A stretch of DNA of 64,000 bases from Paucibacter sp. TC2R-5 (GTDB taxonomy: Bacteria; Pseudomonadota; Gammaproteobacteria; Burkholderiales; Burkholderiaceae_C): positions 124,001 through 188,000 of the forward strand of contig NZ_JAJIRQ010000008.1 in the NCBI RefSeq assembly GCF_025717605.1, in the 5' to 3' direction. The notes under the pieces are model-generated. The model had not been told where the DNA came from, made no database searches, and saw nothing but the letters and a program-made list of their open reading frames with translations. Positions 2,594 to 64,000 of the stretch are shown here, in pieces. The position numbers were made by a program, and so were the translations under genes. Each line of letters starts with the position of its first letter. Positions within the stretch are counted from its first letter, which is position 1.

Positions 2594-3892
<1,299 letters not shown>

Positions 3893-40016: not shown

Positions 40017-43000
40017 ATGACTTCCGACCACAAATCCACCCAGACCAAGGCCGAGAACGCAGTCCCAGCAGCGCCTGCGGTGCCGGCTTTGGTCGCTACG
40101 GTGGCTGTGCCCCTGCCAAGCAGCGCGGCGGCCGATGCCAGGCCTGCGCTGGCCATCGTCGGCATTGGCGCCTCGGCCGGCGGCCTGGAGGCCTTCGAGG
40201 CCTTTTTCAAGGCCTGCCCGCAGGACACCGGCCTGGGCTTTGTGCTGGTGCCGCATCTGGACCCCGACCACGAAAGCCTGCTGGTCGAAATCCTGCAGCG
40301 CAGCACCGCCATGCCGGTGCTGCAGGCGCTGGACGAAACCTTTGTTGCGGCCAATCACGTCTACATCATTCCGCCCAACCGCGATATGGCCATCCTGGGC
40401 GGCGAGTTGCAGCTGACGCTGCCGGAGGTGGCGCGCGGCAAGCGCATGCCGATCGACGGTTTCATGCGTTCGCTGGCGGCTGATCAGCGCGGGCGCGCCA
40501 TAGGCATCGTCTTGTCAGGTACCGCCAGTGACGGCACGCAGGGGCTGGCCGCCATCCTCGACGCCGGCGGCACCAGCCTGGTGCAAGAACCCGGCAGCGC
40601 GCGCTATGACGGTATGCCGCAAAGTGCGATCAAGGCCGGGGTAGCGAAGCAGGTCTTGTTGCCCGAGCAAATGCCGGCCCAGTTGATGCGCTTGGTCAAA
40701 CAACTTGCTGGCGCGCCCCGGCTGACGGCGCTGGCGGCGACAGTGCCGGTCAGAACGCTCAACGCGCTCAACAAGATCTTGCTGCAGCTGCGCGCCAGCA
40801 GCGGCCATGATTTTTCGCTCTACAAAAAGAGCACCATAGGCCGGCGCATCCAGCGCCGCATGACCTTGCATCAAATCGACGACGACCTCGTCTATGCGCG
40901 CTACCTGAAGGAAAACCCGGGCGAGGCACAGCTCTTGTTCCGCGAGTTGCTGATCAATGTGACCAGCTTCTTCCGCGACCCCGAAGCCTTTGTGATGCTC
41001 AAGCAGACCCTGCTGCCGCCGCTGCTGGAGGGCAAGCCGGCGCACAGCGTCTTCCGGGTCTGGGTGGCCGGCTGCTCCACCGGCGAAGAAGCCTATTCCA
41101 TCGCCATGATCATGCATGAGCTGCAAAGCGAGCTCTTGTCCAGCAGCGCGCAAGGCCTGACCCTGCAGATCTACGCCACCGATCTGGATGATGAGGCGAT
41201 CGCCGTGGCACGAGCCGGCCGCTACCCCAGCAGCATCGCGCTGGACGTGTCGCCAGAGCGCCTGCGCCGCTTCTTCACCAAGGAGGCGGAGGGCAGCTAC
41301 AAGGTCAAAAAAGAAATTCGCGACTCGGTCGTGTTTGCGGTGCAAAACGTCATCAAAGACCCGCCCTTCACCCGGCTGGATCTGCTGAGCTGCCGCAATC
41401 TGATGATCTACCTGGAACCCGAGTTGCAGCAGCGGCTGATCAACACCTTTCATTACGCGCTGCGGCCCAATGGCTTGTTGTTCTTGTCCACTTCGGAGAG
41501 CATCACCAACCAGCCCGAGCTGTTTTCGCCGCTTGATCGCAAATGGAAGTTCTACCAGGCCCGGCATGATGGGCGCGCGCAGCGCGAGCACGGGCGTGTG
41601 CCCATAGGCCCTATCTCTATGCTTGCCGCGCCCCCGCAAGCCGGCATCACAGGAGGCGATTTGAATCCGAAAGAAACCCTAGCCACAAGCACCGGCAAGT
41701 TGAGCGCCCAGATTGCCGATATCAGCAACCGCTCGCTCTTGCAGGCCTTTGCACCGGCCTCGGTCACCACCGACAGCGACGGCAACATCCTCTACATCCA
41801 CGGCGACACCGGCCGCTATCTGCGCCCGGCCCCCGGCCCGGCCAGCTTCAATGTGCTGCAGATGGCGCGCGAGGGCCTGCAAGGTGGTTTGCGCACGGCC
41901 CTCTTGCAGGCGGCAGCGGGCGCTGCAGGTGCGGCGAGTGGGCTTGCTGGTGGAACAGGCTTGCCGCAGGGCGCGCTGTCCTGGCCCAGCGAGCTGGCCA
42001 TGGTCAAGACCAATGGCGGTTTTTCGCCGGTTCGCTTCAGCGTGCGTGCACTGCCCCGACTGGCCAACCAGCCGGCGATGCTGCTGGTCAGCTTCGAGGA
42101 AGCGCCCGAGGCGCCCGAGCCGAGCACACTCAGCGTGGCGGGCGACGGCAGTGTCGAACAGGCGCGCATCAAGGAGCTGGAGTTAAAGCTCAACTACGCC
42201 AACGAGACGCTGCAAACCACCCATGAGGAGCAGCAGGCTTTCAACGAGGAACTCAAATCCACCAATGAGGAGCTGCAGTCCACCAACGAGGAGCTGCAAT
42301 CCTCCAATGAGGAGCTGGAAACCTCCAAGGAGGAGTTGCAGTCGCTCAACGAGGAAACCATCACCGTCAACGCCGAGCTGAACAGCCGCATCGAGCAGCT
42401 GACCAGCGTGCAAAACGATATGAAGAACCTGCTGGACAGCATAGGCTCCGGCACCCTCTTCCTCGACCACAGCTTGTGCATTCGCCGCTTCACGCCGGCC
42501 ACGCTGAAGATCTACCGCCTGATCCCCAGCGATGTGGGCCGCCCTTTGAGCGACATCACCTGCAATCTCGATGCCGCCCAGCACCAGGCCATGCAGGCCG
42601 ACCTGCAAAGCGTGCTGGACAGCCTGATACCGATCGAGCGCGAAGTCAGCACCGCAGATGGCACCTGGCACCTGAGTCGCATCCAGCCCTACCGCACGCT
42701 GGACAATGTGATCGAGGGTGTCGTGCTGACCTTCACCGATGTGAGCGAATTCAAGCGCGCCCATATGGCCGCCGCGCAGGCTGCCGTCGAGCTGACTGCG
42801 GCCAAGCAAGCGGCCACTCAACTAACGCTGCAGCTGAGCGTGCAATTGGCGCGCGAGCTGGCCGAAGGCATTGTCAACACCGTCAGCGAGCCGCTGCTGG
42901 TGCTGGACGCGGCGCTGCAAGTGGTGTCGGCCAGCCGCAGCTTTTACGCGTATTTCAAGGTCGAGGCCGCCGACACGGTCGGGCGCAAGCTCTTCGAGCT

Positions 43001-43217
43001 TGGCAATGGCCAATGGGCGATCCCTGCGCTGCGCGATTTGCTGGAAAACATCTTGCCCAAGAACCGCACGCTGGACGGCTATGAGGTCAAGCACGACTTC
43101 CCCGGCCTGGGGCCGCGCCGCATGGTTTTGAATGCGCGCCGCATCAGCACCTCGGCCGGAGAAACCGACCTGATCTTGCTGGCGATGGTCGCCATCGAGA
43201 CGGTGGCCGCCGGCTGA
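40017..43217 (+). CDS. CheB-CheR-PAS fusion signalling protein
   Basis: A 1066-residue fusion. Residues about 42-230 are a CheB methylesterase domain with Ser53 (GASAGG), His80 (PHLDP) and Asp172 (SGTASDG), so the triad is complete, but no receiver domain is attached. Residues about 245-500 are a CheR methyltransferase with the SAM motif VAGCSTGEEAYS. A coiled coil of five near-exact heptads (NEELxST, residues 743-777) follows, then two PAS-type domains (about 795-910 and 940-1060). No chemoreceptor or CheA is nearby, so the substrate is probably a signalling protein outside classical chemotaxis. First of four plus-strand signalling genes. Confidence 0.92.
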   Translation: MTSDHKSTQTKAENAVPAAPAVPALVATVAVPLPSSAAADARPALAIVGIGASAGGLEAFEAFFKACPQDTGLGFVLVPHLDPDHESLLVEILQRSTAMPVLQALDETFVAANHVYIIPPNRDMAILGGELQLTLPEVARGKRMPIDGFMRSLAADQRGRAIGIVLSGTASDGTQGLAAILDAGGTSLVQEPGSARYDGMPQSAIKAGVAKQVLLPEQMPAQLMRLVKQLAGAPRLTALAATVPVRTLNALNKILLQLRASSGHDFSLYKKSTIGRRIQRRMTLHQIDDDLVYARYLKENPGEAQLLFRELLINVTSFFRDPEAFVMLKQTLLPPLLEGKPAHSVFRVWVAGCSTGEEAYSIAMIMHELQSELLSSSAQGLTLQIYATDLDDEAIAVARAGRYPSSIALDVSPERLRRFFTKEAEGSYKVKKEIRDSVVFAVQNVIKDPPFTRLDLLSCRNLMIYLEPELQQRLINTFHYALRPNGLLFLSTSESITNQPELFSPLDRKWKFYQARHDGRAQREHGRVPIGPISMLAAPPQAGITGGDLNPKETLATSTGKLSAQIADISNRSLLQAFAPASVTTDSDGNILYIHGDTGRYLRPAPGPASFNVLQMAREGLQGGLRTALLQAAAGAAGAASGLAGGTGLPQGALSWPSELAMVKTNGGFSPVRFSVRALPRLANQPAMLLVSFEEAPEAPEPSTLSVAGDGSVEQARIKELELKLNYANETLQTTHEEQQAFNEELKSTNEELQSTNEELQSSNEELETSKEELQSLNEETITVNAELNSRIEQLTSVQNDMKNLLDSIGSGTLFLDHSLCIRRFTPATLKIYRLIPSDVGRPLSDITCNLDAAQHQAMQADLQSVLDSLIPIEREVSTADGTWHLSRIQPYRTLDNVIEGVVLTFTDVSEFKRAHMAAAQAAVELTAAKQAATQLTLQLSVQLARELAEGIVNTVSEPLLVLDAALQVVSASRSFYAYFKVEAADTVGRKLFELGNGQWAIPALRDLLENILPKNRTLDGYEVKHDFPGLGPRRMVLNARRISTSAGETDLILLAMVAIETVAAG
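42243..42347. repeat. Five tandem 21-base heptad-coding units
   Basis: Units at 42243, 42264, 42285, 42306 and 42327 each encode one heptad of the type Asn-Glu-Glu-Leu-x-Ser-Thr or a close variant. They form the coiled coil joining the CheR part to the PAS part of the fusion protein. This helix is typical of the family, but the near-identity at DNA level shows recent repeat growth or strong constraint. Confidence 0.85.
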
Positions 43218-43235
43218 CTCTATTTACCAACCCTG

Positions 43236-45551
43236 ATGCAGCCCGCCGCCCCAAGCCCAGATCCAGACGGGGACTCCGGCCACAGCGCGCTGCGCGCGGT
43301 GGCCGAGGCGGCTTGGGCTGCGACCGGCCAGCAGAGTGCCTCGCCCGCGCCCCTGGTCGACAGCAGCCAGCTCTTGCATGAGCTGGAGGAGTACAAAATC
43401 GACTTGGAGATGCAGAACGAGGCCTTGCTCGAGGCGCAGTGGGAGCTGCAGAACTCACGCGACCAATTTGCCGAGCTGTATGAATTCGCCCCGTCTGGCT
43501 ACCTCTTGCTGGGGCCGAACGAGCAAATCGAGCAGGCCAATCTGACAGCGGTCAAGCTGCTCGGGCAGGAGCGCGCTCAGCTGCTGGGGCGCAACTTCGT
43601 CGGCTGGGTGGCGGCGACGCAGCAAAAGGCATGGCGCCAGCTGTGCCTGCGCTTGCGCCAGGCAGGCGCTCATCCACGGTCCGAGCCGCTTGAGCAGATC
43701 GAGTTGCTGTTGCGGCGCAGCGACGGCAGCGAGTTTTTGGCCCATCTGGAATGCAGCCCAAGGATGCAGCCGGGCGCCGCTGCCCAAGCCGGGGCTGGGG
43801 CCAGTGGATTTCGCCTGTTGATCAGCGATGTGTCGGCGCTGCGCGCCAGCGAGGCCCGGCTGCGCCTGAGCGATGCTGCGCTGGGCGCCATCAGCGAGGG
43901 AGTACATATCACCAGCCCCGAAGGTCTGCTGACCTCGGTCAACGCTGGCTTCGAGGCCATCACCGGCTATAGCGCCGCTGAAGCCATCGGCCGCAAACCA
44001 AGCTTTATGCAAGGCCCGGGCAGCGACCCCCTCACGATAAAAGCCATCCGTACGGCGCTGCGTGAGCGGCGCCAATTTGCCGGTGAAATACTCAATTACC
44101 GCAAGGACGGCCAAGCTTTCTGGAGCGAGCTGACCATCTCGCCGCTGCTGGATGAACAAGGCATGCTGACCCATTGGGTCGGAATCTCGCGCGACATCAG
44201 CGCCGCTAAACGGGATGCTGCCGAGATCCACAGATTGGCGTTTCACGACAGCCTGACTCAGCTGCCGAATCGGCGCTTGCTGCATATGAGACTGGAGCAG
44301 GCACTGGCGGCCAGTGAGAGCAGCGGCCAGTTTGGTGCGCTGTTCTTCATCGACCTGGATAAATTCAAAGAGCTGAACGACTCGCATGGCCACGATATGG
44401 GTGACCTGCTCTTGACGCAGGTGGCGCACAGGCTGCGCGAGGCCTTGCGCCATCAGGACACGGTGTCACGCCAGGGTGGCGATGAGTTTGTGCTTCTGGT
44501 GCTGGAGCTGGGCGCCACGCAAGAGTTGGCGGCTAAGGCGGCCGCTCAGATCGGCAATTCCTTGCGTGAATTGCTGGCGCCGCCCTTTGATCTCATGGGT
44601 TTTGAATACCCTTGCAAGGCCAGCATAGGAGCGGCGCTGTTTCGCGCGCCCGACAGCGTGGCCGAGCTGCTCAAGCATGCCGATTTGGCGCTTTATGAGG
44701 CCAAGGGCACGGGCCGTGACCGAATGCGGTTTTTCGACCCTGCCATGCAGTTGGCGCAGGATCAGCGCATGCGCTTGCTGAGCGAGTTGCGGCTGGCTAC
44801 CGAGCTGGGGCAATGGCGGCTGTACTACCAGCCGCAGGTTGACGCGACGCGGCGCATGATAGGCGTGGAGGCCTTGCTGCGCTGGCAGCATCCGCGTCTG
44901 GGCCTTTTGCTGCCGGATGATTTCATCGGACTGGCCGAAGACAGTGGCCTGATCCTGCCCATAGGCTTGTGGGTCTTGCAGACCGCCTGTGCCCAGCTCA
45001 AGCAATGGGAAGCCGACCCGCACAGCGCCGGCCTGCCAATCGCGGTCAATGTCAGCGCCAGGCAGTTCAGGCAGCCCGACTTTGTGGCGCAGATCGTCGC
45101 GCTGCTGGCGGCCAGCGAGTGCCGTCCGGAGCTGCTGAAACTGGAGCTGACCGAGAGCCTGGTGCTGGATGACATCAGCAACACCATAGACACCATGCTG
45201 GCCTTGAAGGTCTTGGGCCTGCAATTTTCGATGGATGACTTTGGCACCGGCCACGCATCCCTGAGCTACTTGGCCCAGCTGCCGCTGGATCAACTCAAGA
45301 TCGACAAATCCTTTGTCGCCAAACTGCCCGGCCTGGCCAAGGATGAAACCATTGCACGCGCCATCATCACCATGGGTTTAGGCCTTAATATGAGGGTGAT
45401 TGCCGAGGGCGTGGAAACCGAGGCGCAGCGCAATTTTCTGGGCACCCAGGGTTGCGCCGAATGCCAAGGTTTTTTGTTTAGCCGCCCACTGCCCATCGAT
45501 GCCTTGCAAGACTATCTGGATGAAAAGGCGCAGCCCGCAGCGACAGCATGA
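43236..45551 (+). CDS. PAS-PAS-GGDEF-EAL cyclic di-GMP protein
   Basis: A 771-residue soluble protein. An N-terminal coiled coil (about residues 45-75; LEMQNEALLEAQ) leads to a PAS domain (75-195), then a LOV-like PAS (about 205-325) in which the photoactive Cys position is Pro255 (GRKPSFMQ). The GGDEF domain has an intact active site at 414-418 and an inhibitory RHQD site at 405-408. The EAL domain keeps Glu545-Leu547 (VEALLRW) and DDFGTG. Both synthesis and breakdown of cyclic di-GMP are possible. It starts 18 bases after the CheB-CheR gene and its stop overlaps the next ATG. Confidence 0.94.
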   Translation: MQPAAPSPDPDGDSGHSALRAVAEAAWAATGQQSASPAPLVDSSQLLHELEEYKIDLEMQNEALLEAQWELQNSRDQFAELYEFAPSGYLLLGPNEQIEQANLTAVKLLGQERAQLLGRNFVGWVAATQQKAWRQLCLRLRQAGAHPRSEPLEQIELLLRRSDGSEFLAHLECSPRMQPGAAAQAGAGASGFRLLISDVSALRASEARLRLSDAALGAISEGVHITSPEGLLTSVNAGFEAITGYSAAEAIGRKPSFMQGPGSDPLTIKAIRTALRERRQFAGEILNYRKDGQAFWSELTISPLLDEQGMLTHWVGISRDISAAKRDAAEIHRLAFHDSLTQLPNRRLLHMRLEQALAASESSGQFGALFFIDLDKFKELNDSHGHDMGDLLLTQVAHRLREALRHQDTVSRQGGDEFVLLVLELGATQELAAKAAAQIGNSLRELLAPPFDLMGFEYPCKASIGAALFRAPDSVAELLKHADLALYEAKGTGRDRMRFFDPAMQLAQDQRMRLLSELRLATELGQWRLYYQPQVDATRRMIGVEALLRWQHPRLGLLLPDDFIGLAEDSGLILPIGLWVLQTACAQLKQWEADPHSAGLPIAVNVSARQFRQPDFVAQIVALLAASECRPELLKLELTESLVLDDISNTIDTMLALKVLGLQFSMDDFGTGHASLSYLAQLPLDQLKIDKSFVAKLPGLAKDETIARAIITMGLGLNMRVIAEGVETEAQRNFLGTQGCAECQGFLFSRPLPIDALQDYLDEKAQPAATA

Positions 45552-48286
45552 AGGACCAGCATTCGCAAACCCAAGCGTCGTCGCCGATCATCGCTGAGCC
45601 TGTGCCTGAGCCTGGCTCGGATGCGGGGGTCCTTGAGCACAGTCAGCCGCTGCTAGAGCAGCAACGCCGCCTGCTGCACGAGTTGCACGTACACCAACTC
45701 GAACTGGAGATGCAGAACGAGCAGCTGCGGGCGGCACGCCAAGAGCTGGAAGAATCGCGCGACCGTTATGTCGAGTTGTATGAGTTCGCGCCGATCGGCT
45801 ATTTGACGCTGGACGCAGACGGCTTGATTGAGCAGATCAACCTGTTCGCGATCAAACTGCTAGGCCAGGAGCGCAAACGGCTATTGGGCAGAAGTTTCAC
45901 CCATCTGGTCATTGATCAAGACCGTCCGCGTTGGCGGGAGTTGACTATTCGCCTGCGCAACAGTCCGCAGGCCATCGAGTCGCAGACCAATTTCGAGCTG
46001 GGCTTGCGGCGCGGCGACGGCCGCCCGCTTGCGGTGAGCCTGCATTGCGCCGGGCCGGCACACGGCTTGCCCGGCGACAAGCTGCGGGTCGCCATCACCG
46101 ACATCAGCGAGCGGCGCCAGGCCGAGCTGGCCCTGCAAGAAAGCGAATTCCGTTTTCACCAAGTGCTGCGCAGCATCACCACCGTGGCGGTGCAGGGCTA
46201 CCGCATGGACGGGCGTGTGAGCTACTGGAGCCCCGCCTCGGAGAGGCTCTACGGCTATAGCGCCGAGGAGGCCTTGGGGCGCCATCTGCTCGATCTGATC
46301 ATACCGCCCGAAATGCGCGACACGGTGGCCGAGGCGATACGACAAATGGCCGCCACCGGCCAGCCGATTCCCGGCGGCGAGTTGACTTTACGGCGCAAGG
46401 ATGGCAGCCGAGTGGCGGTAATCTCCAGCCGCGCACTGATGCAGGCAGAAGGTCAGGAAGGCGAGCTATTCTGCGTGGATATCGACATCAGCGAGCGCCT
46501 GGCGGCCGAAGAGGCGCTGCGCCGGAGCGACCAGATTTTGCGCAGCATCTTGCAAGCGACGCTGGACGGCTATTGGCATGTCGACCGGCAATGCCGGCTG
46601 CTCGATGTCAACCAGCGTTATTGTGAGTTGTCGGGTTACACGCGCGAGCAGTTGCTGGGCAGGCCGGCGCAAGATTTTGATATCTTGGCGGACGACGCCG
46701 AATCGGCCGCGCGCATTCAGAGGGTGCTGGACCAAGGCAGCGCCCAGTTCGAGACCATCCACCGGCGGCGCGATGGCTCGGAATGGCCGGTCGAGGTCAG
46801 CGTGACCCTGCAAGACTCGCAGGATGGCGGCTTCGTGGTGTTTTTGCGCGATATTTCGGCGCGCCATGCTGCCGCCGCCTCACTGCGCGAGCGGGAGTTG
46901 TTCGGCCAAGCCATCGGCGAGAACTTCCCCGGCATGCTGATCTACCTGGACCATGAACTGGTGACTCGTTATGCCAACCAGCAGGCCTTGGATTGGTTCG
47001 GTTTCGGGCGCGTGCAGCAGACAAGCGTGCAGGAGGTCCTCGGGCCGGAGCGCTATGCACAGCTCGAACCGGCTTTTCGCGCCGCGCTGGCCGGCGAGCC
47101 GCAGCAGTTCGAGAGTCGGCGCAAAAAGAGCGATGGCGAGGTCGGCTGTTTCTGGACCCAGTTGGTGCCGCACCGCATTGACGGTAAGGTTTGCGGTGTG
47201 TTCGTGATGGCCACCGACATCGGCGCCTTGCGCGCCAGCCAGGTTCGCCAGCGCCTCAATGATGCGGCGCTAACCTCTGTTTCTGACGGCATTCGGATCA
47301 GCGACGCGGATGGGCGCATGGTTGCGGTCAACGCGGCTTTTGTGGCGATCACCGGTTATGGCGAGGCGGAGCTGCTGGGCCGCAGCGGGCGCATGCTGCA
47401 AGGCCCGGGCACCGACCCGCAAACGGCCGCCGACATCCAGGCGGCCTTCCTGAGCCAAAGCGAATATGCCGGCGAGATCCTCAATTACCGCAAGGACGGC
47501 ACACCGTTCTGGAACGCCTTGACGATCTCGCCGGTCAAGGACGAGCAAGGGCAGTTGACCCATTTTGTCGGGGTCAGCCGCGATGTCACGCTGCGCCGGC
47601 AAGCCGACGCGGCGCTGCAGAGCACGCTCAAGGACAAGGAAGCGCTGCTCAAGGAAGTGCATCACCGGGTCAAAAACAATTTACAGGTCATCACCAGCCT
47701 CTTGCGCCTGGAGGCGGGGCGCAGCGCGGTGGCCGACACCAAGACCGTGCTGCAGGCGATGCAGGGCCGCATCAGGGCGATGGCACAGCTGCATGAAACG
47801 CTCTACCGCTCGGGCACTTTTGCTGCGGTCGATCTGGGTGCTTATCTGGGGCAAGTGGCGACCCAGGCCTTTCGCGCACAGGTGCTGGACCTCGCAGGGG
47901 TGCGCTTGGCGCTGGACATGTCAGCCTTGCCAACGAGCATGGACCAGGCCGCTGCATTTGGCTTGCTGGTCAACGAGTTGATCTCCAACAGCCTCAAGCA
48001 TGGGTTTGCCCAGCCTCATCCAATGGGAGCGGGCGAGATCAAGCTCAGTCTGCAGGCTGTTGATGCCGCGAGTTCGCTATGGCGCTTGCGGCTTGCCGAC
48101 AACGGCCCCGGCCTGGCGGACGACTTCGAGGCCAGGCGCCAGAGTTCGCTGGGCCTGCAATTGGTGGGAGACCTGTGCCGCCAGGTCAAGGGGGCTTTGA
48201 GCATCAGCTCGCAGCCGGGCCAAGGCGTGGCGTTCAGCATTGACTTCAAGGCCATGGCGCCGAGTGCGCTGGTGATGCCGCCATGA
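45548..48286 (+). CDS. Multi-PAS HisKA_2 sensor histidine kinase
   Basis: A 912-residue soluble kinase. The N-terminal coiled coil and first PAS (about residues 35-190) are clearly homologous to those of the preceding PAS-GGDEF-EAL protein. Further PAS domains lie at about 195-320, 325-445 and 450-570, and a LOV-like PAS at 575-695 with Gly614 where LOV domains have Cys (GRSGRMLQ). The HisKA_2 helix has EVHHRVKNNLQ with His706 as the likely phosphate acceptor, followed by HATPase_c (about 790-905, DNGPGL). It overlaps the next gene, a lone receiver, by four bases; the two are the obvious cognate pair. Confidence 0.93.
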   Translation: MKDQHSQTQASSPIIAEPVPEPGSDAGVLEHSQPLLEQQRRLLHELHVHQLELEMQNEQLRAARQELEESRDRYVELYEFAPIGYLTLDADGLIEQINLFAIKLLGQERKRLLGRSFTHLVIDQDRPRWRELTIRLRNSPQAIESQTNFELGLRRGDGRPLAVSLHCAGPAHGLPGDKLRVAITDISERRQAELALQESEFRFHQVLRSITTVAVQGYRMDGRVSYWSPASERLYGYSAEEALGRHLLDLIIPPEMRDTVAEAIRQMAATGQPIPGGELTLRRKDGSRVAVISSRALMQAEGQEGELFCVDIDISERLAAEEALRRSDQILRSILQATLDGYWHVDRQCRLLDVNQRYCELSGYTREQLLGRPAQDFDILADDAESAARIQRVLDQGSAQFETIHRRRDGSEWPVEVSVTLQDSQDGGFVVFLRDISARHAAAASLRERELFGQAIGENFPGMLIYLDHELVTRYANQQALDWFGFGRVQQTSVQEVLGPERYAQLEPAFRAALAGEPQQFESRRKKSDGEVGCFWTQLVPHRIDGKVCGVFVMATDIGALRASQVRQRLNDAALTSVSDGIRISDADGRMVAVNAAFVAITGYGEAELLGRSGRMLQGPGTDPQTAADIQAAFLSQSEYAGEILNYRKDGTPFWNALTISPVKDEQGQLTHFVGVSRDVTLRRQADAALQSTLKDKEALLKEVHHRVKNNLQVITSLLRLEAGRSAVADTKTVLQAMQGRIRAMAQLHETLYRSGTFAAVDLGAYLGQVATQAFRAQVLDLAGVRLALDMSALPTSMDQAAAFGLLVNELISNSLKHGFAQPHPMGAGEIKLSLQAVDAASSLWRLRLADNGPGLADDFEARRQSSLGLQLVGDLCRQVKGALSISSQPGQGVAFSIDFKAMAPSALVMPP

Positions 48287-50786: not shown

Positions 50787-50801
50787 GATGGTTTGCGCGC
50801 C

Positions 50802-51176: not shown

Positions 51177-51297
51177 CTCTTCCTCGCCCGCGGCCCAATG
51201 TCTGATCATTGCTTGCCACTGTATGCATGGAGCAGATGCTGGACTATCGGCAAGACACCTGAACTGCAGGCGGGAATTGCCCGAGTGGGTTGAAGCC

Positions 51298-53027: not shown

Positions 53028-53072
53028 GAGTCACAGGCTGGAGGGGGGGCATCGGCAGGCCAGAAGCGGCGC

Positions 53073-56171: not shown

Positions 56172-56177
56172 AGGGCT

Positions 56178-57788
56178 TCAGTTCAAAGGGGCCGGGCGGG
56201 TGGGTATATGTGGGCTGCTGGGAGCATCGTACACAAACAGCAACTCGAAAATAGCCAGAGGTGCCGGGCCAATACTCAATGTGGCGCCAAGTTGACGCGC
56301 CAGATCAAACACCAGTTGCATTCCCAGCGAGCGCGCACAACGCGCCTCGAATTCGGCCGCGTCGCCCAAGCCCACGCCGTTGTCGCTGACCCGCAGGCAC
56401 CACTGCCGCTCGGCCTCATCCAAGGCTTTCAGCTCGATCTTGAGCTCACCCCCGCGCCCGGCCGGGAAGGCATGTTTGAAGCTGTTTGAGATCAGCTCAT
56501 TGACCAGCAGGCCAATCGGTGCGGCCTGATCTAGGCTCATCGTCAGCGGGCGCAGCTGCAAGGTCAGTTTCACCGCGACATCGCCGACCTGCGCTCGCAC
56601 CGCCTGCGTTGCCAGCTGCTGCAAATAACTTGCAAAATCAACGGATGCAAAAATCCCGCTGCGGTAGAGCGACTCATGCAAGAGCGCCATCGAGCGAATG
56701 CGCGCCTGCATCTCGCCCAAGACCGCGCGGGTTTCGAGCTGTTCGCTGCGCGTGGCCTCAAGGCGCAACAAGCTGGTGATGACTTGCAGATTGTTCTTGA
56801 CCCGGTGGTGCACCTCATTGAGCAGGCCGACCTTCTCCTGCAAGGACAGCTCCAGCTCACGCTTGGCCTGGTGACTCTCGCTGATGTCCTGAATCGTGCC
56901 GATCAATTTCAGCGTAATGCCGTTTTCACGCACGGCCGAGCCTTGTGTGCGTACCCATTTGGGCGTTCCCTGTGCGCCTATCCAGGGCAGTTCCATGTCG
57001 TAAGGCGTACCGCTGTCGATGGCAGCCTGCAAGGCCGCCTCGATCAAGGGCCGGGCCTCGGGCGCAAACAGGTGGATGCCGTCGGCCAGCGGCGGCTCCA
57101 GCGCGTCCGACAACTCGGCGATGCGAAAGGTCTCGCGCGTCCAGCTCAGCTTCATCGTGGCCAACTCAAGCTGCCAGCCGCCGACCTTGGCCAGCGCACC
57201 GGTGCGCTCCAGCAACTCGGCGCTGACGGCCAAGCTCGCTTGCACACGGTATGCCTCACTGACATCGCTGAACACCAGCACCATACCTTGCAGGTGGCCG
57301 GCGGAGTCACGAATCGGCGCGGCGCTGTCAGCGATTTGATACTCCGCCCCGCCTCGCGCCAGCAAGCTGGTGTGATTGGCCAGGCCCGTGGCCTGGCCGC
57401 TGGCCAATACCCGCTGCGCGGGGTCCTGGCGTGGCTGGCGGCTGCCGGTATCGATGATGCAAAACACCTCCGGCAGCGTGCGCCCCAAAGCCTCGGCCAA
57501 GGTCCAGCCGGTCAGGCGCTCGGCCACCGGGTTCATGCGGGTGATCAGGCCGGCCGCGTCGGTGGCGATCACCGCGTCGCCGATCGAGTGCAGCGTGATG
57601 CTCAAGCTCTCTTCGCTGCGCTTGAGCAACTGCTGGCCGTGGGCGAGCTCGGCCACGGCTTGCCTGACTTGGCGGCGCAACAAGATCACAAAAGCCGTGG
57701 CGAGTAGCAAGGCCAAGCCAAGCGAAAACAGCAGATATTTGGCCAGATCAGGCCAGGCGATGTCATACATGGTGTTCAGGGGCAACAT
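56178..57788 (-). CDS. Membrane PAS-PAS HisKA_2 kinase
   Basis: A 536-residue kinase anchored by one membrane helix (about residues 16-38). Two PAS domains follow (about 58-175 and 185-305), then HisKA_2 with His328 (EVHHRVKNNLQ) and HATPase_c (about 425-525; SDNGVGL). The periplasmic part is minimal, so sensing is probably by the PAS domains. The catalytic half is strongly similar to those of the kinases at 45548, 57792 and 60880. Only three bases separate it from the upstream kinase gene and six from the downstream hybrid kinase gene. Confidence 0.93.
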   Translation of the reverse strand: MLPLNTMYDIAWPDLAKYLLFSLGLALLLATAFVILLRRQVRQAVAELAHGQQLLKRSEESLSITLHSIGDAVIATDAAGLITRMNPVAERLTGWTLAEALGRTLPEVFCIIDTGSRQPRQDPAQRVLASGQATGLANHTSLLARGGAEYQIADSAAPIRDSAGHLQGMVLVFSDVSEAYRVQASLAVSAELLERTGALAKVGGWQLELATMKLSWTRETFRIAELSDALEPPLADGIHLFAPEARPLIEAALQAAIDSGTPYDMELPWIGAQGTPKWVRTQGSAVRENGITLKLIGTIQDISESHQAKRELELSLQEKVGLLNEVHHRVKNNLQVITSLLRLEATRSEQLETRAVLGEMQARIRSMALLHESLYRSGIFASVDFASYLQQLATQAVRAQVGDVAVKLTLQLRPLTMSLDQAAPIGLLVNELISNSFKHAFPAGRGGELKIELKALDEAERQWCLRVSDNGVGLGDAAEFEARCARSLGMQLVFDLARQLGATLSIGPAPLAIFELLFVYDAPSSPHIPTRPAPLN

Positions 57789-57791
57789 GCG

Positions 57792-59258
57792 TCAGCGCGG
57801 CAAGAAGCTGACGCTGAATTCCGCCGCCGGCCCAGTGCCGACTTCAAGCTGACCGCCGATTTGATGGGCCAGGTCGGACACCAGTTGCAGGCCCAAGGAG
57901 CGCTCGCGCCTGGCCTCAAAGTCCGCCGGCAGGCCGGCACCGGTATCGCTGACCTTCAAGCGCCAGCGGGGGCCACCGGCCAGCGGCTGCAAGCTGACCC
58001 GAACTTCTCCTTCGCTGAGTGCGCCACCCTGTGCGCCACCTTGTTCGCCACCTTGCGCCGCCTCATCTGCGCCGCTCGCGAAGCCATGCTTGAAACAATT
58101 GCTGAGCAGCTCATTGAGCAGCAGCCCGCAAGGCGTGGCCAGGTCCATGCCGACCTTGAGCGGCGCCAGATCCAGCGTCAAGCGCACCCGGCCACTGGCC
58201 GACATGCGAAACACCTGCGTGGCGACCTGCGCCAAATAGACCGACAGATCGGAGCCCGCAAAGACACCCGAGCGATACAGCGTCTCATGCAGCAAGGCCA
58301 TCGAGCGGATGCGGCCCTGCATTGCGTCAAGCACCGACTTGGTTTGCGGCAGGCTGCTGCGGCCCGCCTCCAGGCGCAAGAGGCTGGTGATCACCTGCAA
58401 ATTGTTTTTGACTCGGTGATGCACTTCCCTGAGCAAGGCTTCCTTGTCCTGCAAGCTCTGACGCAAAGCTTCCTCGGTCTGTTTGCGCGCCGTGATGTCG
58501 CGCGACAAGACCACAAAGCGAGACTGATCGGATGCCCCATCCACCTTGCGCACCATGGAGAGCTCGAACCACATCGGGCCTTGCGCCAGATCGAGCTGGA
58601 TCTGCTGACCGATCGAGAAGCCTTCCCGATCGGCTTGCTCCAGGCTGGCCATCACCACCGCCGCAGCAGCGGGCGGCAAGATATCGCTGACCAACTTGCC
58701 CAGAAATACTTCGGCGGGTGCGGCCAGCAGATCGCTGCGGGCGGAGTGGTAATCGTGATATCGGCCCTGCCGGTCGATCTCAAACAGCAGGTCGGGCACG
58801 GCATCCAAGGTTGCCCGCAGACTGGCCTGGCTGGCATGCAACTGCCTGGCCAGATTGGTCTGCTGCAAGGCCGTGGCCACGCGCCATTTAAGCAGCTTGA
58901 GATAACCGCGCTGTGGGTCCTTCAACATATAGTCGTGCACACCCAGCTCGAGCGCGCGCACCGCGATTTGCTCCTCGCCCATGCCCGCCACCAACAGCAC
59001 CAGCTGCGCGCCAAACGCATCGATCAAATCAAAGCAAGTGCCGTCGCCCAGGTTGTAGTCGGACAGGATGATGTCGAAAGCTTGCCCGGCCAGCTCGCTG
59101 CGCGCCTGCGCGACCGAGCGCGCAACGCGAACACGGTAAGGCAGGTCTTGCTCCTTGACCGCCTTCAAAAAGGCCATTTCGTCGACCAGATCGTCTTCGA
59201 TCAACAGCAAACTGACGACGCTGGCAGCATTGAATGCGGGCACATTCGCCGCGTTCAA
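57792..59258 (-). CDS. REC-PAS-HisKA_2 kinase
   Basis: A 488-residue soluble kinase. The N-terminal receiver-like domain (about residues 12-130) has LLIEDD, an Asp in LSDYNL and a Lys in MLKDPQ. A PAS domain (about 145-265) comes next, then HisKA_2 with His281 (EVHHRVKNNLQ) and HATPase_c (about 375-485). The HATPase contains a short Gly/Ala/Gln-rich insertion (GGEQGGAQGGALSEGE). Its start overlaps the stop of the lone receiver gene upstream by four bases, so those two are translationally coupled. Confidence 0.93.
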   Translation of the reverse strand: MNAANVPAFNAASVVSLLLIEDDLVDEMAFLKAVKEQDLPYRVRVARSVAQARSELAGQAFDIILSDYNLGDGTCFDLIDAFGAQLVLLVAGMGEEQIAVRALELGVHDYMLKDPQRGYLKLLKWRVATALQQTNLARQLHASQASLRATLDAVPDLLFEIDRQGRYHDYHSARSDLLAAPAEVFLGKLVSDILPPAAAAVVMASLEQADREGFSIGQQIQLDLAQGPMWFELSMVRKVDGASDQSRFVVLSRDITARKQTEEALRQSLQDKEALLREVHHRVKNNLQVITSLLRLEAGRSSLPQTKSVLDAMQGRIRSMALLHETLYRSGVFAGSDLSVYLAQVATQVFRMSASGRVRLTLDLAPLKVGMDLATPCGLLLNELLSNCFKHGFASGADEAAQGGEQGGAQGGALSEGEVRVSLQPLAGGPRWRLKVSDTGAGLPADFEARRERSLGLQLVSDLAHQIGGQLEVGTGPAAEFSVSFLPR

Positions 59259-59671
59259 TTGGGTGCCCCTTCACTGGTCGACCAATAGTCGCGAATCACC
59301 TGCATGGTGCGCACAAACTGCGGGTAGTCGACCGGCTTGAGCATATAACCCGAGACATTTTGATCAAAGCTGGCCATGCGGTCGGTTTCTTCTTGAGAAG
59401 TGGTCAGCACCACCACCGGAATACGCTTGAGCAGAGGGTCTTGCTTGAGCACGGCCAAGAATTCGATCCCATTCATGCGGGGCATATTGAGGTCAAGCAG
59501 AATCAAACCCGGCCTGGGATTGGCCGGATCGCGCAAAAACGCCAAGCCCGCTTCACCATCGCTGACCTGATCGAGCGGATATTCCACACCCAAATCTCTG
59601 AGTGAGCGGCGCACCGTCATCACATCGACCTCATCGTCTTCGATCAGCAAAATATGTTGCTGTGCTTGCAT
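59255..59671 (-). CDS. Single-domain response regulator, Rcp1-like
   Basis: A 138-residue lone receiver beginning MQAQQHILLIEDDEVD, with Asp in LLDLNMPRMNG, the TTS switch and Lys in MLKPVD. The insert after the third strand and the long last helix resemble Rcp1-type regulators that partner soluble sensor kinases. ATG 59671 is chosen over 59812 since the upstream residues overlap the preceding kinase gene and are not receiver-like. It overlaps the REC-PAS-HisKA_2 kinase gene by four bases and is 100 bases from the kinase gene upstream. Confidence 0.92.
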   Translation of the reverse strand: MQAQQHILLIEDDEVDVMTVRRSLRDLGVEYPLDQVSDGEAGLAFLRDPANPRPGLILLDLNMPRMNGIEFLAVLKQDPLLKRIPVVVLTTSQEETDRMASFDQNVSGYMLKPVDYPQFVRTMQVIRDYWSTSEGAPN

Positions 59672-59771
59672 GATGATCTGGCCCTCGCTGGCTACTGATT
59701 GCACTGCTGCCGATGGTTTTGCGTCTGGCTTTGCAGCGGACTGCTTCTTTGCACAATGCCGAGACGCAACG

Positions 59772-60890
59772 CTACACGATTTCGGCCGGCAGCGTGAAAT
59801 GAAAAGCAGCACCTTCTCCGGGCGTGGATTCGACCCAAACGCGCCCCCCCTCGAGCTCGACGATCTTCTTCACCAAGGCTAGGCCAACGCCGGTGCTCTC
59901 GACCTTGTCACGCGGGCTCAGGGTTTGAAACAGCTGGAAGATCTTGTCGAAAAATCTGGCCTCAATGCCGGGGCCGTTATCGGCCACCGTGAACTGCCAC
60001 ATCGGCCCGATCACCGCGCAGCTCACCGTCACCCGGCCGGCCGCTTTGTCCATGTATTTGATGGCATTGGAGAGCAGGTTTTGAAACAGCTGCTGAGCTT
60101 TGAAGGGGTCGATTTGCACGCTCGGCAAGGTTCCGTTCAGCTCAATCATTAGGTGCGGCGGCGGGGCCAATAACTCGATGCTATTGCGCACCAGCGCATC
60201 CAGATTGACCAAGCGGCGCTCCTCCCGCCCGCGCCCGGCGCGCGAGTAGGCCAAGATGCCGTCAACCAAGGCGCCCAGGCGCTTGACGCGGTTGTCGATC
60301 AGGCCGAGCTGCTGCGCACCTTCGGCGCCAAGTTTGTCGGCGTAGTCGCTCATCAACCAGCTGGCCAAGCTGCTGATGCCGCGCAGCGGGGCCTTCAAGT
60401 CATGCGAGACGATGTAGGCGAAGTCATTCAACTCACGGTTGGCTGCCTGCAACTCCAAGAGCATTTCTTCGTTGTGTTGCTCCAGCAATTTACGCGCCGT
60501 GATCTCGGCGCGGATCGCCACATATTGGGCCGGACGCCCATCCGCGCCCAGAAAAGGCACGATGGTGGTCTCGACCCAATAGATGCTGCCGTCCTTGGCC
60601 AGGTTCTTCAATTCGCCCTTCCAGACCCGGCCGCTGCTTATCGTCTCCCACAGCTCGCGGATAAAGGCCTTGGGGTGGTGACCGGAATTGATGATGCGGT
60701 GATCACTGCCTATCAATTCCTCGCGCGACCATTTTGAAATCGCGCAGAACTTGTCGTTCACATAGCAGATGCTGCCGCGCGCATCGGTGATCGCGACGAT
60801 GGCATGCTCGTCCAAAGCTCGTTTATAGGCCTCGAGCTCACTCAGCTGAGCGGGCGGGCTTGGGGGCGAAGCAGCGGGTTCATGACTCAT
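59772..60890 (-). CDS. PAS-HisKA sensor kinase
   Basis: A 372-residue soluble kinase: one PAS domain (about residues 20-130; GSDHRIINSGHHP motif), HisKA with His163 (AYIVSHDLKAPLRG) and HATPase_c (about 255-370; ADNGPGIE, GVGLALVKKI). The SHDLKAPLR form resembles bacteriophytochrome-type kinases, and the downstream Rcp1-like receiver would be a natural partner. Its PAS is a close relative of the first PAS of the large hybrid kinase at 11159. ATG 60890 (MSHEPAAS) is chosen; the upstream Arg/Lys/Pro-rich extension is the shadow of a repeat in the preceding gene. It overlaps that gene by 11 bases. Confidence 0.92.
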   Translation of the reverse strand: MSHEPAASPPSPPAQLSELEAYKRALDEHAIVAITDARGSICYVNDKFCAISKWSREELIGSDHRIINSGHHPKAFIRELWETISSGRVWKGELKNLAKDGSIYWVETTIVPFLGADGRPAQYVAIRAEITARKLLEQHNEEMLLELQAANRELNDFAYIVSHDLKAPLRGISSLASWLMSDYADKLGAEGAQQLGLIDNRVKRLGALVDGILAYSRAGRGREERRLVNLDALVRNSIELLAPPPHLMIELNGTLPSVQIDPFKAQQLFQNLLSNAIKYMDKAAGRVTVSCAVIGPMWQFTVADNGPGIEARFFDKIFQLFQTLSPRDKVESTGVGLALVKKIVELEGGRVWVESTPGEGAAFHFTLPAEIV

Positions 60891-63105
60891 CTTTTGGGGC
60901 CTCGGTTGGGGGCGAGGTTTGGAGCGAGTTTTGGGGCGCGGTTTGCGCCGTGGTTTGCGCCGTGTTTTGGGGCATGAAGCGCAACTCGAAAGCAGCCAGC
61001 GGCAGCGGGCCAACCGTCAAGACGCCGCCTATCTGACGGGCCAAATCGCCCACCAGTTGGAGGCCCAACGAGGACGTGCCGGCCAGCGTGAAGTCTTGCG
61101 GCAAGCCGATGCCATCATCCTGCACGCGCAAGCACCATTGCCGATCTGTATCGGTTTGCTCACTGCCTGCCAGCGGCTGCAAGCTCAGCCCCAGCACGCC
61201 CTCTCGGCCGCCGACAAAGCCATGCTTATAGGCATTGGTGATCAGCTCATTGACCAGCAAGCCGCAGGGTGTGGCTTGGTCCAGGCTCACTTGCAGACTG
61301 CCCATATCCAAATGCAGCCGAACCGCTGGGCTGCCCTGGCTGCGGCAGGCCTGCACGGCCACATCCTTCAGATAAGCGCCCAGATTCACGCTGGCAAAGA
61401 GGCCGCTGCGATAAAGCGACTCATGCAGCAAGCCCATTGCGCGCAGGCGCCCTTGCATATCTGTCAAGACCTGTCGAGTGCGGGCCTCGGCGCCGCGCCC
61501 CGCCTCCAGCCGCATCAGGCTGCTGACCACCTGCAGATTGTTTTTCACGCGGTGATGAACTTCGTTCAGCAGCACCGTCTTCTCCTGCAAGGCCGCCTGC
61601 AGCGCGAGCCGGCTTTGCTTGCGCTCGGTGATGTCGTGCACCAGCGCCAAATTGGCAGGCGCGCCGTCAAATTCGATCATGGCGCCCTGCACTTCGACGT
61701 CGATGACGCTGCCGTCCAGCTTCAGATAGCGCGATTCCAACGGGATCAAACGCAGCCCACCTTCGGCCACCTGAGCCACCCTGGCAAGTACCTGCGAATG
61801 CTCATCGGGGTGGATGAATTTCAGAACCGGTTGGCCGACCAGGTCCTGGGCCGATTGCCCGCCCAATAACTTGACCAAGGCTGGGTTGGCAAAGAGCAAG
61901 CGGCCCGCCCGGTGCACGGCGATGGGCTCGGGTGACCGCTCGATCATGGAACGGTAGCGGGCCTCGCTGTCGCCCAGTGCGAGTTCGCGCTCGCCGAGTT
62001 CGGCCAAGAGCAGATTGAAGCCCGCGATCAGCAGGCCGATTTCGTCGGGCCGTTTGATTGGCAAAGGCTGCATAGGCAAACCGGTACTTGATGTGGCCGC
62101 CGCGACAGCCAGGTGTTTGGCCGCTTGCACCAGCGGCGCGAGCTGATGTTGCAGCAGCCACCACATCAGACCCGCAGCCAGCAAACTCAAGCCCAAGGCG
62201 GCCCACAACATACGCCGCTGCATGGCGTGCAGCGGCGCAAAAGCTTCTTCGGTCGGCAAGGATGCCGCCACCGCCCAACCCGCCAGCGGCACGGTCGTCA
62301 GCGACACCAGCGCCTCTTGCCCGGCCGGGTTGGTGTAAACCAAGCTGCTGTGTTGCCCTGCGAGGAGCCGGTCCAAGGCCGGGTCTTCACCGAGCGGCGC
62401 CAGAGTTTGCATGACGCGACCGGGGTCGCTGGACGTGATGCTCAGGCGATGCTTGATTGACACCAAAAAGAAATGCCCGGTTTGGCCAAAACCATGGGCC
62501 GTGATGCGGTCCAAAAAACTCGGCTTGGCCATATTGATCAGGCCGACCAGGACGCCCTGCACCTGACCGCCCCCATCACGCACGGCCACGATCAGGCCGA
62601 ACACGGGGGTCTTCAAGATCCGCCCCATCACCGCGCGCCCGACGCGGGAGCGGCCATCATTCAGGCAGTCAGCGACATCGGTGTTGCGCAAATAGTTGCT
62701 GCCCACCCGGCCGGGCAGTGGCGGCGCATCGGCAATCGCCCGCCCATCCTTGGCGATGAACACCACCCCGCCGTTGAAGAGGGACAGCAAGACCGGCCGT
62801 TGATCCAGCAGGCTTTGAGCTTCTACGGGGTCTGCATCCCTCGCACCGCCGGCCTCTCTTGCGACCGCCTCAAGTGCAGCGAAGCGTGTTCCCAACTGAT
62901 CATTGATCTCGGCCGCCAACAGACCCACGCTGCGATATTGTTGCTCGCTCAACAAGGCCTGCACATCGTCATGCACGATGCGACCGACGTAGATCGCCAG
63001 CGTCCAAATGCTCAACACCACCAAGGCCAGGGTAACCAGCGTCAGGCGGGCATTGAGCGTGCGCAAAGGCAGGAAACCGGGCCTTGACAAATGACTCTCC
63101 AACAC
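60880..63105 (-). CDS. Cache-PAS-HisKA_2 membrane kinase
   Basis: A 741-residue transmembrane kinase. Helices at about residues 18-45 and 293-318 flank a periplasmic Cache-type sensor (about 46-290; VFIAKDGRAIAD, VFGLIVAVRDGGG). A HAMP-like linker (about 320-372), a PAS domain (about 378-500), HisKA_2 with His518 (EVHHRVKNNLQ) and HATPase_c (about 615-720) follow. The C-terminal tail is a degenerate Gln-Thr-Ala-Pro repeat. Its PAS resembles the first PAS of the hybrid kinase at 53073. It lies 30 bases after a Cache-only gene, so extracellular ligand sensing may be shared. Confidence 0.93.
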   Translation of the reverse strand: MLESHLSRPGFLPLRTLNARLTLVTLALVVLSIWTLAIYVGRIVHDDVQALLSEQQYRSVGLLAAEINDQLGTRFAALEAVAREAGGARDADPVEAQSLLDQRPVLLSLFNGGVVFIAKDGRAIADAPPLPGRVGSNYLRNTDVADCLNDGRSRVGRAVMGRILKTPVFGLIVAVRDGGGQVQGVLVGLINMAKPSFLDRITAHGFGQTGHFFLVSIKHRLSITSSDPGRVMQTLAPLGEDPALDRLLAGQHSSLVYTNPAGQEALVSLTTVPLAGWAVAASLPTEEAFAPLHAMQRRMLWAALGLSLLAAGLMWWLLQHQLAPLVQAAKHLAVAAATSSTGLPMQPLPIKRPDEIGLLIAGFNLLLAELGERELALGDSEARYRSMIERSPEPIAVHRAGRLLFANPALVKLLGGQSAQDLVGQPVLKFIHPDEHSQVLARVAQVAEGGLRLIPLESRYLKLDGSVIDVEVQGAMIEFDGAPANLALVHDITERKQSRLALQAALQEKTVLLNEVHHRVKNNLQVVSSLMRLEAGRGAEARTRQVLTDMQGRLRAMGLLHESLYRSGLFASVNLGAYLKDVAVQACRSQGSPAVRLHLDMGSLQVSLDQATPCGLLVNELITNAYKHGFVGGREGVLGLSLQPLAGSEQTDTDRQWCLRVQDDGIGLPQDFTLAGTSSLGLQLVGDLARQIGGVLTVGPLPLAAFELRFMPQNTAQTTAQTAPQNSLQTSPPTEAPKDES
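60925..60978. repeat. Short degenerate GCGCCGTGGTTT-like repeats
   Basis: Near-copies of a 12-base unit (GCGCCGTGGTTT, GCGCCGTGTTTT, with looser flanking copies) encode the Gln/Thr/Ala-rich tail of the Cache-PAS-HisKA_2 kinase on the minus strand, close to the start of the next kinase gene. Confidence 0.5.
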
Positions 63106-63135
63106 GATGAAGCCAAAAGGAAAGACACCCGCCCG

Positions 63136-64000
63136 TCAAGGCAAGGCGTTCGACTTTGAGCGGCCAATATTCAGCACGATCAAGCTCAGGCCTATGCGCC
63201 AGCTCAACCAGGTGATCAGCATGACAAAGGCCAAGCCAAGGGCCAAACTATGACGCAGCATGGCCTCGGCGTCTGCAAAAAGTTCGGCCTGCGGCAGCCC
63301 GGCGAGCAAGCGCCAATCCGTCCCCGCAATGTTCACAACATGGTTCAGGCGCGGCCCCTCATCCGGCGCCAAGGGGGCGCTGAACTCGCCTTCCCGAAAT
63401 CCTTGCTGCCCCAGCAAGTCACGCAAGGCATCGGCCGAGACATTGACCCGACCAATGAAGGCGGCAGCATCGCTTGAACGGGCCACAATGGTCTGCTGCC
63501 GACTCAGCACCTCCACGACCGCATGGCTGGGCAGGCCCTCACGCAGGCGCTCACTCATCTGCAAGAGGTCCAGTTGCAGGTTCAAGGAACCCAAGCGCTG
63601 ACCCGAGCTGTCGAACAGCGGCTGCGTCAGCCAGGTCAGCCAACGACCTGCGCTGTGCAAGGACAGGCTTGCACTCTGCAAGCTCGCCGGGCTTGGCGGC
63701 AGCCGCCCATGCGGGCTCACCAGCTCGCAGATCAGCTCGCCATGCAGATCTCTAACGCTTAAATTGACCAGCACCTGGTCCAGCCGGACAAGGGCGCTGG
63801 AAAAGCGCGCGCAACGAGCCGCATCGGCGTCTTGCCTGGCCGCTTCCCGGGCCAGGTTTTTCAGCAAGACTAGATCGCGGCCGAGTTGCTGCTGCAGGCT
63901 TGTTGCCGCAGCCGTCGCCACGGCTTTGACGCGGGCATGTGCTTGCTCCCGGGCAAGCTGCATATGCTGCAGGCTGGACCCGATCAGCTCAAAAGCGATC
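63136..64000 (-). CDS. Cache-type membrane sensor without output domain (partial)
   Basis: The frame stays open to the right edge of the window (last visible residues before the Met at 63963 read IAFELIGSSLQH), so the N-terminus is missing. The visible 288 or so residues form a long helix, a double-Cache-like periplasmic domain (LGSLNLQLDLLQMSERL, then GTDWRLLAGLPQAELF) and one C-terminal membrane helix (LGLAFVMLITWLSW), and the protein then ends after about 20 residues with no HAMP, PAS or kinase part. It may pass its signal to the adjacent Cache-PAS-HisKA_2 kinase by contact. A truncated former kinase is the alternative. Confidence 0.8.
   Translation of the reverse strand, partial: IAFELIGSSLQHMQLAREQAHARVKAVATAAATSLQQQLGRDLVLLKNLAREAARQDADAARCARFSSALVRLDQVLVNLSVRDLHGELICELVSPHGRLPPSPASLQSASLSLHSAGRWLTWLTQPLFDSSGQRLGSLNLQLDLLQMSERLREGLPSHAVVEVLSRQQTIVARSSDAAAFIGRVNVSADALRDLLGQQGFREGEFSAPLAPDEGPRLNHVVNIAGTDWRLLAGLPQAELFADAEAMLRHSLALGLAFVMLITWLSWRIGLSLIVLNIGRSKSNALP

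Follow-up and report, generated by a model that had tools for sequence, protein, structure and literature searches.

A fifteen-gene signalling island of Paucibacter sp. TC2R-5 whose core has chemotaxis-linked relatives

A 64,000-nucleotide stretch of the Paucibacter sp. TC2R-5 genome, hereafter the window (positions 124001-188000 of contig C44, NZ_JAJIRQ010000008.1; the genome is 5.13 Mb in 45 contigs), carries a block of fifteen genes, g1 to g15, at window positions 40017-64140, the last 140 bases lying past the window edge. Homologs of the core of this signalling island adjoin chemotaxis (che) genes in relatives, and we therefore regard the island as a CheA-less relative of a chemotaxis-linked module. 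To the fuller reading, that it is a CheA-less and locally expanded version of that module in which HisKA_2 sensors feed one type of receiver, we assign a probability of about 0.55. The content and order of the module, the duplications within it and its che linkage are established by sequence comparison. The genes and the repeated receiver-coding segments are as follows.

g1, 40017..43217, forward strand: CheB-CheR-PAS-PAS fusion with CheB and CheR motifs, its CheB part lacking a receiver
g2, 43236..45551, forward strand: PAS-PAS-GGDEF-EAL protein, both catalytic motifs present
g3, 45548..48286, forward strand: multi-PAS HisKA_2 kinase
g4, 48283..48672, forward strand: stand-alone receiver of the g5/g8/g9 group, 4-base overlap with g3
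g5, 48669..50786, reverse strand: REC-PAS-GGDEF-EAL protein, both catalytic motifs present
g6, 50802..51209, reverse strand: stand-alone receiver, NarL type
g7, 51298..51948, reverse strand: REC-LuxR transcription regulator, NarL family
g8, 51945..53027, reverse strand: REC-HisKA_3 kinase, 4-base overlap with g7
g9, 53073..56171, reverse strand: hybrid kinase, REC-PAS-PAS-HisKA-HATPase-REC-Hpt
g10, 56178..57788, reverse strand: PAS-PAS HisKA_2 kinase
g11, 57792..59258, reverse strand: REC-PAS-HisKA_2 kinase
g12, 59255..59812, reverse strand: Rcp1-like stand-alone receiver, likelier ATG start at 59671
g13, 59772..61013, reverse strand: PAS-HisKA kinase, PAS resembling that of 3ewk, likelier ATG start at 60890
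g14, 60880..63105, reverse strand: PAS HisKA_2 kinase with a probable dCache/HAMP front
g15, 63136..64000, reverse strand (the frame runs on to a start at 64140): two hydrophobic segments, no family match
Receiver-coding repeat in g5, 50403..50702, reverse strand: family D1, 70% DNA identity to the g8 copy
Receiver-coding repeat in g8, 52641..52940, reverse strand: family D1, reference copy
Receiver-coding repeat in g9, 55788..56087, reverse strand: family D1, 71% DNA identity to the g8 copy

Chemotaxis genes beside homologs of the core

Seven genes (g1, g3, g5, g6, g7, g8 and g9) are common to all four species that bear the island, namely the host and its congeners G002, G009 and G007, and make up its core. 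In G298, a genome of a different genus, a che run of receptors, CheA, CheW, a CheW-receiver protein, CheR and CheB is followed immediately, on one strand, by the core homologs. All seven core genes are represented in this array (g8 at 66% identity, g7 at 76%, g6 at 54%, g1 at 49%, g3 at 45%, g5 at 63% and g9 at 59%), which also holds four further HisKA_2 kinases; a PAS domain like that of g13 (68%) is joined there to a HisKA_2 kinase instead. In G232, g8, g7, g6 and a GGDEF-EAL gene share a strand with a receptor, CheA, a second receptor, CheW, CheD, CheB and a HisKA_2 kinase, and a CheR-like frame between CheW and CheD is 29% identical to the CheR part of g1. Pfam found no CheA, CheW or receptor (methyl-accepting chemotaxis protein, MCP) among the fifteen island genes, so that the island does not itself qualify as a chemosensory locus, and all eight CheW-family matches of the host genome sit outside it. 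The adaptation enzymes CheB and CheR are present, fused in g1.

The frequency of this linkage was followed through g8. Five of 299 sampled genomes of the family matched it at E 1e-80 (host, G009, G137, G232 and G298) and one of 399 sampled genomes of the order, the host itself, at E 1e-70; the close form of g8 is therefore not general in the order, and distant forms would be missed at these thresholds. Within the genus of G298, 27 of 89 genomes carry g8 at E 1e-60. Besides G298 and G137 we examined 24 of these loci, leaving out G775, where a g8 fragment stands at a contig end. A g7 homolog adjoins the g8 homolog in all 27 loci inspected (the 24 together with G298, G137 and G232), the same HisKA_3/NarL-type pairing that g8 and g7 form in the island. 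Sixteen of the 24 loci extend at least 9.6 kb downstream of g8, and 12 of these have CheA on the same strand, 7.3-8.1 kb away; here g8 and g7 are followed by a receiver-GGDEF-EAL gene (g5-like), a HisKA_2 kinase and a g6-like gene, leading into CheA. Two of the sixteen (G749 and G710) contain only the first part of CheA, at the sequence edge; in one (G724) the contig ends before CheA, and one (G761) has no CheA match. The other eight loci are too short, two of them (G719 and G734) ending at a CheY-like receiver. The run in G701, read by Pfam, is REC-HisKA_3, NarL, REC-PAS-GGDEF-EAL, dCache-PAS-HisKA_2, REC (the g6 homolog), MCP, CheY and CheA. In the genus of the host, a metagenome-assembled genome (G016) has a g8-g7 pair and, some 2 kb away, a CheA that is truncated where the contig ends.

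The linked CheA genes differ: those of G298, G232 and G016 are 58-62% identical to each other and 43-46% identical to the CheA of G701, the sole CheA of the other type compared directly. The che linkage is therefore not one frozen arrangement. A separate search for relatives of the hybrid kinase returned, among the 80 matches listed, eight loci that held at least three of the 26 query proteins (flanking genes included), none of them in island order.

Receivers, kinases and a possible circuit

The repeated DNA of the island consists of coding modules. One of these, a receiver segment of 300 bases, recurs in g5, g8 and g9 at about 70% identity; further segments are repeated between g9 and g14 (PAS), between g2 and g3 (PAS) and among g10, g11 and g14 (kinase). 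At the protein level the g5, g8 and g9 receivers are 71-73% identical to one another in the host and 83-86% in G298, and gene by gene they are 73-76% identical between G298 and the host. Concerted evolution of these receivers was considered and is not claimed, since slower evolution in G298 could account for much of the pattern. In a tree of 61 receiver domains, g4 and the N-terminal receivers of g5, g8 and g9 fall with their G298, G137 and G232 homologs into one group (support 0.931), which also holds a receiver beside another HisKA_2 kinase of the host genome. A stand-alone receiver next to a HisKA_2 kinase at C1:244000-250000 (2711-4665 therein) is, among the sequences compared, the nearest to g4 after its G009 ortholog, at 56%.

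The HisKA_2 phosphotransfer domain exceeds the Pfam cut-off in g3, g10, g11 and g14, four of the seven HisKA_2 matches in the whole genome. In the HisKA_2 tree, g3 (0.971), g11 (0.968) and g14 (0.971 with G009, 0.671 with G002) group with their congeners, and five G298 kinases form their own, weakly supported group (0.688); this suggests, and does not prove, that the HisKA_2 kinases of G298 expanded locally and separately.

Solved structures help to sort the receivers and kinases by likely partner. Among solved structures, the g9 N-terminal receiver comes closest to 3cg0 and 1s8n, with PhyR chains among the first ten, and the g4 receiver likewise gives 3cg0 and 1s8n. The latter is labelled a putative antiterminator, and we take it to be PdtaR. 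PdtaS and PdtaR are partners, a HisKA_2 kinase and a receiver. Likeness to PdtaR and PhyR is not general to receivers, because the g9 C-terminal receiver matches those of hybrid kinases and the g12 receiver matches Rcp1/RcpA. The g5 and g8 receivers match the NCBIfam PhyR model, the sole such test made for both, far below its cut-off; the kinase part of g10 matches the NCBIfam PhyK model below the curated cut-off and also matches blue-light-activated kinases. The PAS domain of g13 matches 3ewk (E 5e-49), presumably MmoS, and the PAS of the aerotaxis receptor. The kinase part of g13 matches bacteriophytochromes, and Pfam found no phytochrome domain in the protein. The phytochrome Cph1 and Rcp1 are kinase-receiver partners.

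Judged by sequence, the island proteins thus fall into at least three partner classes: HisKA_2 kinases with PdtaR/PhyR-like receivers, g13 with the Rcp1-like receiver, and the HisKA_3 kinase with the NarL-type regulator. A preliminary description of this DNA had proposed one large phosphorelay, which is too strong given these classes. Probably g12 and g13 are a separate Rcp1-type (redox) pair, possibly joined to the rest through the g11 receiver.

Shared wiring among the other genes is plausible, because one receiver type sits on three outputs (g5, g8 and g9). The phosphotransfer regions of the four HisKA_2 kinases are 64-80% identical and their ATPase regions 47-56%. We propose that these kinases (g3, g10, g11 and g14), which have similar phosphotransfer helices behind different PAS, Cache-like or receiver fronts, phosphorylate this shared receiver type. 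Phosphorylation of the g5 receiver would then alter cyclic di-GMP turnover; that of the g8 receiver would switch the HisKA_3 kinase of g8 and so control the NarL-type regulator g7; and that of the g9 receiver would gate the hybrid kinase, whose Hpt domain could hand phosphate to g6 or to another receiver. The second, Rcp1-type pair of g12 and g13 would likely bring in a flavin redox input. As to physiology, we speculate that the island might help the cell to choose between swimming and attachment according to energy or redox state, in coordination with che genes no longer encoded alongside. A possible though doubtful extension of this scheme is that a chemosensory module was rebuilt around HisKA_2 kinases and CheA was lost in the clade; several sensors would phosphorylate one duplicated receiver, whose single specificity would act simultaneously on cyclic di-GMP turnover, transcription and a hybrid relay, and new inputs and outputs would arise when the shared kinase or receiver domain is joined to new partners.

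Several points weigh against this reading of the island. The wiring is deduced from sequence, and identity among receivers does not prove that they share kinases. To our knowledge 3cg0, the nearest solved receiver, has no known partner. The comparison of phosphotransfer and ATPase regions among the four HisKA_2 kinases was made without an unrelated control set (the motif pattern matched 0 of the 80 listed loci), and phosphotransfer helices are generally conserved. The G298 homolog of g9 has 801 residues and ends before the Hpt domain; the G298 counterpart of g3 is a best match rather than a demonstrated ortholog, since the HisKA_2 tree groups no G298 kinase with g3; and HisKA_2 and g6 matches in the loci of the other genus are only about 37-60% identical. 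In G710 the HisKA_2 kinase lies on the opposite strand. The che linkage is common and not obligatory, because two genomes with g8-g7 gave no CheA match in the sequence read, namely G761 and G137 (where the pair occurs with a HisKA_2 kinase and there is no CheA match within 39 kb). Lastly, the host genome has a kinase-regulator pair 29-33% identical to g8/g7 that lies divergently beside a probable che cluster (C1:368000-387999, 12769-17924 therein), and g8/g7-like pairs may associate with che genes more broadly.

Variation within the genus and competing readings

The genus sample comprised 18 genomes, the host and 17 congeners. As judged by tblastn with each gene, order and orientation of the island are the same in three of the 17 (G002, G009 and G007), with gains and losses, and this conserved order supports the preliminary description. 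G002 has all fifteen genes, with g10 broken; G009 is without g10-g13; and G007, a draft assembly of about 360 contigs, is without g2, g4, g10, g14 and g15 and has g1 and g5 each in two pieces. The break in the G002 ortholog of g10 (C45, joined positions 22216-22931) has removed its middle, HisKA_2 part. Relatives of g9 are 77-83% identical in the three congeners (residues 1-820 only in G007). Swapping of the g3 kinase module between congeners, suspected from BLAST fragments, was set aside, the kinase parts in G002, G009 and G007 being orthologous at 69-72%.

The anchor gene to the left of the island, DUF4337, is present in 18 of 18 genomes (as a 27-residue piece only in G007); it is 93-94% identical in G002 and G009, and no other complete match exceeds 79%. 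No island lies beside it in the 11 congeners with readable flanks among the 14 non-bearers; the other three (G011, G015 and G016) are uninformative at this site, their contigs ending within about 2 kb. The island-free site gave single distant matches only, to a GGDEF-EAL protein at 41% (G008 and G013) and to a PAS stretch at 37% (G005). The distance from DUF4337 to the gene before the cytochrome is 44-55 bases in G004, G006 and G014, and the corresponding gap is about 0.7 to 17 kb in G012, G017, G001, G005 and G010; in G003, G008 and G013 the right anchor is not within the 19.9 kb read. One gain of the island in the lineage of the four bearers, at a variable site, would be a simple reading of this pattern. 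Whether the genes lie scattered in neighbouring genomes, the case that the preliminary description named as its refutation, was checked genome-wide for g8 only: full-length close relatives occur in five of the 18 genomes, the four bearers (84-100%) and G016 (66%), and in none of the other 13, with partial matches of 39-40% and receiver matches of 56-59% in G012, G015 and G017. In these same three island-free congeners a HisKA_2 stretch (51% to g11) adjoins a protein like residues 8-450 of g5 (53-54%), an arrangement that is a smaller version of the pairing of a HisKA_2 kinase with a g5-like protein.

Such variability is what the main competing explanation would predict, in which unrelated two-component systems, each insulated and independently regulated, piled up at a signalling-gene hotspot by duplication and insertion. 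The interval between DUF4337 and the sulfite-oxidase-like gene on the right varies as just described (short in three congeners, kilobases in five), cassettes such as g10-g13 and the five genes absent from G007 come and go, coding segments are duplicated inside the island, and g12 and g13 belong to a different partner class. Against it stand the persistence of seven core genes as a group in four species, with homologs grouped in another genus, and the presence of one receiver type on three outputs; we consider this explanation unlikely, if a serious competitor.

Less probable still is that the island serves as an accessory arm of the cell's chemotaxis machinery, with the CheB-CheR-PAS fusion and the stand-alone receivers acting on receptors and CheA encoded elsewhere in the genome. 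The che linkage in relatives and the motifs of g1 agree with this, as does the presence elsewhere of at least three CheA-like frames with CheW and HATPase matches (C1 at about 381 kb, C34 at about 257 kb, and a 2110-residue frame, C1 at about 191 kb). The first two frames, the ones that were compared, are nevertheless only 42-48% identical to the linked CheA genes and not specially close to them, the CheB part of g1 is without a receiver, and the island has no MCP or CheW of its own.

A transferred hub of the alphaproteobacterial-type general stress response is very improbable: HisKA_2 kinases and PhyR-like receivers are present, and g10 matches PhyK and g5 and g8 match PhyR, all below curated cut-offs, but the fifteen genes, to which this search was confined, include no NepR, no EcfG and no PhyR-type protein, that is, a receiver joined to a sigma-like domain. 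The LuxR helix-turn-helix of g7 does give some similarity to models of sigma-70 region 4.

The CheA-less module we favour resembles several known systems in part. PdtaR, if 1s8n is indeed this protein, ranks with the closest solved structures to the g4 receiver and the N-terminal receiver of g9, and its partner is likewise a HisKA_2 kinase; PdtaR, however, carries an RNA-binding ANTAR output, and Pfam found no ANTAR domain in the island proteins. The g12 receiver is among the nearest to Rcp1/RcpA and the g13 kinase part is bacteriophytochrome-like, as in Cph1/Rcp1, but g13 has the 3ewk-like PAS in place of a recognizable phytochrome domain. In the MrrA/PhyK/LovK hub of Caulobacter, several HWE/HisKA2 kinases are known by experiment to converge on MrrA or PhyR, and a common receiver passes the signal to several branches linked to attachment (PMC5964349). 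That hub uses one stand-alone receiver (PMC5964349), whereas the island has copies of a receiver type fused to three outputs, clustered, with cyclic di-GMP and NarL-type outputs and a wiring that we infer. The Flm cluster of Comamonas testosteroni is a che-like cluster with a CheA-like kinase, a receptor, a CheW-like adaptor and two CheY-like regulators, in which extra receivers control biofilm formation with cross talk to CheA (PMC6391922); the island is without the CheA-like kinase, the receptor and the adaptor. No account of this gene set was found among the listed titles and abstract openings of the open-licence literature, a scope outside which most subscription papers fall. The locus is a variant of known multikinase and che-linked networks and of moderate interest as such. 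Should the proposed wiring be true, it would provide a natural test case for two-component networks that grow without insulation: 24 kb would hold a single receiver specificity repeated on three outputs and four sensors that share one kinase module. The module can be compared with and without CheA by way of its che-linked relatives, and the split into partner classes yields concrete, falsifiable phosphotransfer predictions.

Gene arrangement and surroundings

All fifteen open frames are in the place and order given by the preliminary description: four forward genes (40017-48672) are followed by eleven reverse genes (48669-64140), and the two arms converge with a 4-base overlap. Pfam confirmed the CheB-CheR-PAS fusion (g1), two GGDEF-EAL proteins (g2 and g5), four HisKA_2 kinases, one HisKA kinase (g13), one HisKA_3 kinase (g8) and a hybrid HisKA kinase (g9). 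Motifs for CheB, CheR, GGDEF, EAL, the kinases and Hpt are all present, and the phospho-acceptor aspartates of g4, g11 and g12 can be read in the translations, though the motif pattern missed them. There are indeed four small receivers or regulators (g4, g6, g7 and g12), as had been described, but receivers occur on eight proteins, with nine REC domains in total. Of the fifteen proteins, 14 match signalling families in Pfam and g15 does not. The description of g15 as a Cache-only sensor is unproven: it gave no Pfam or NCBIfam match at the thresholds used, and its predicted structure (mean predicted local distance difference test score, pLDDT, 47.7) is too poor to use. The front of g14 matches dCache_1 (1.5e-9) and HAMP in Pfam, both under curated cut-offs.

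The start/stop overlaps noted earlier are real. With the frames as called, ten of the 13 junctions between genes on one strand either overlap or leave no more than 18 bp; the called frames of g12 and g13 are probably too long, the internal ATGs at 59671 and 60890 being likelier starts, and with these the count is nine of 13. The gap is 88 bp between g6 and g7 and 45 bp between g8 and g9. Promoter and terminator scans of positions 48000-64000 gave chance-level results only. ARAGORN found no tRNA in the window, and base composition has no clear break at the island.

The island is the densest receiver and kinase stretch of the genome, with 16 REC/HATPase matches in 24 kb against an expected mean of 1.1. 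These figures derive from 130 REC and 110 HATPase matches genome-wide at E 0.001, counts that include a few sub-cut-off Pfam matches and non-kinase ATPases such as MutL. Across 500 uniform draws the highest count per 24 kb ranged from 4 to 9, and the next-densest real stretches hold 10 (C43), 9 (C1) and 7 (C23); because signalling genes naturally pair and cluster, the value of 10 is a fairer yardstick than the uniform null. The earlier remark placed this density outside a chemotaxis locus, which is literally true here, yet misleading, as core genes adjoin che genes in many relatives. The second and third densest stretches (C43:150638-168762 with 10 and C1:91068-107935 with 9) have frames that only distantly match island proteins.

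The neighbours are ordinary genes. To the left lie an RND efflux pair, thymidylate synthase, dihydrofolate reductase and DUF4337. The right edge, which the preliminary description could not place, is now fixed by the start of g15 at 64140, beyond which follow SfLAP-like, SDR, cupredoxin, cytochrome c and sulfite-oxidase-like genes. Outside the island, at window positions 11159-15460 on the reverse strand, a hybrid kinase of 1433 residues lies beside mutL; it contains PAS domains, HisKA, Hpt and two or more receivers.

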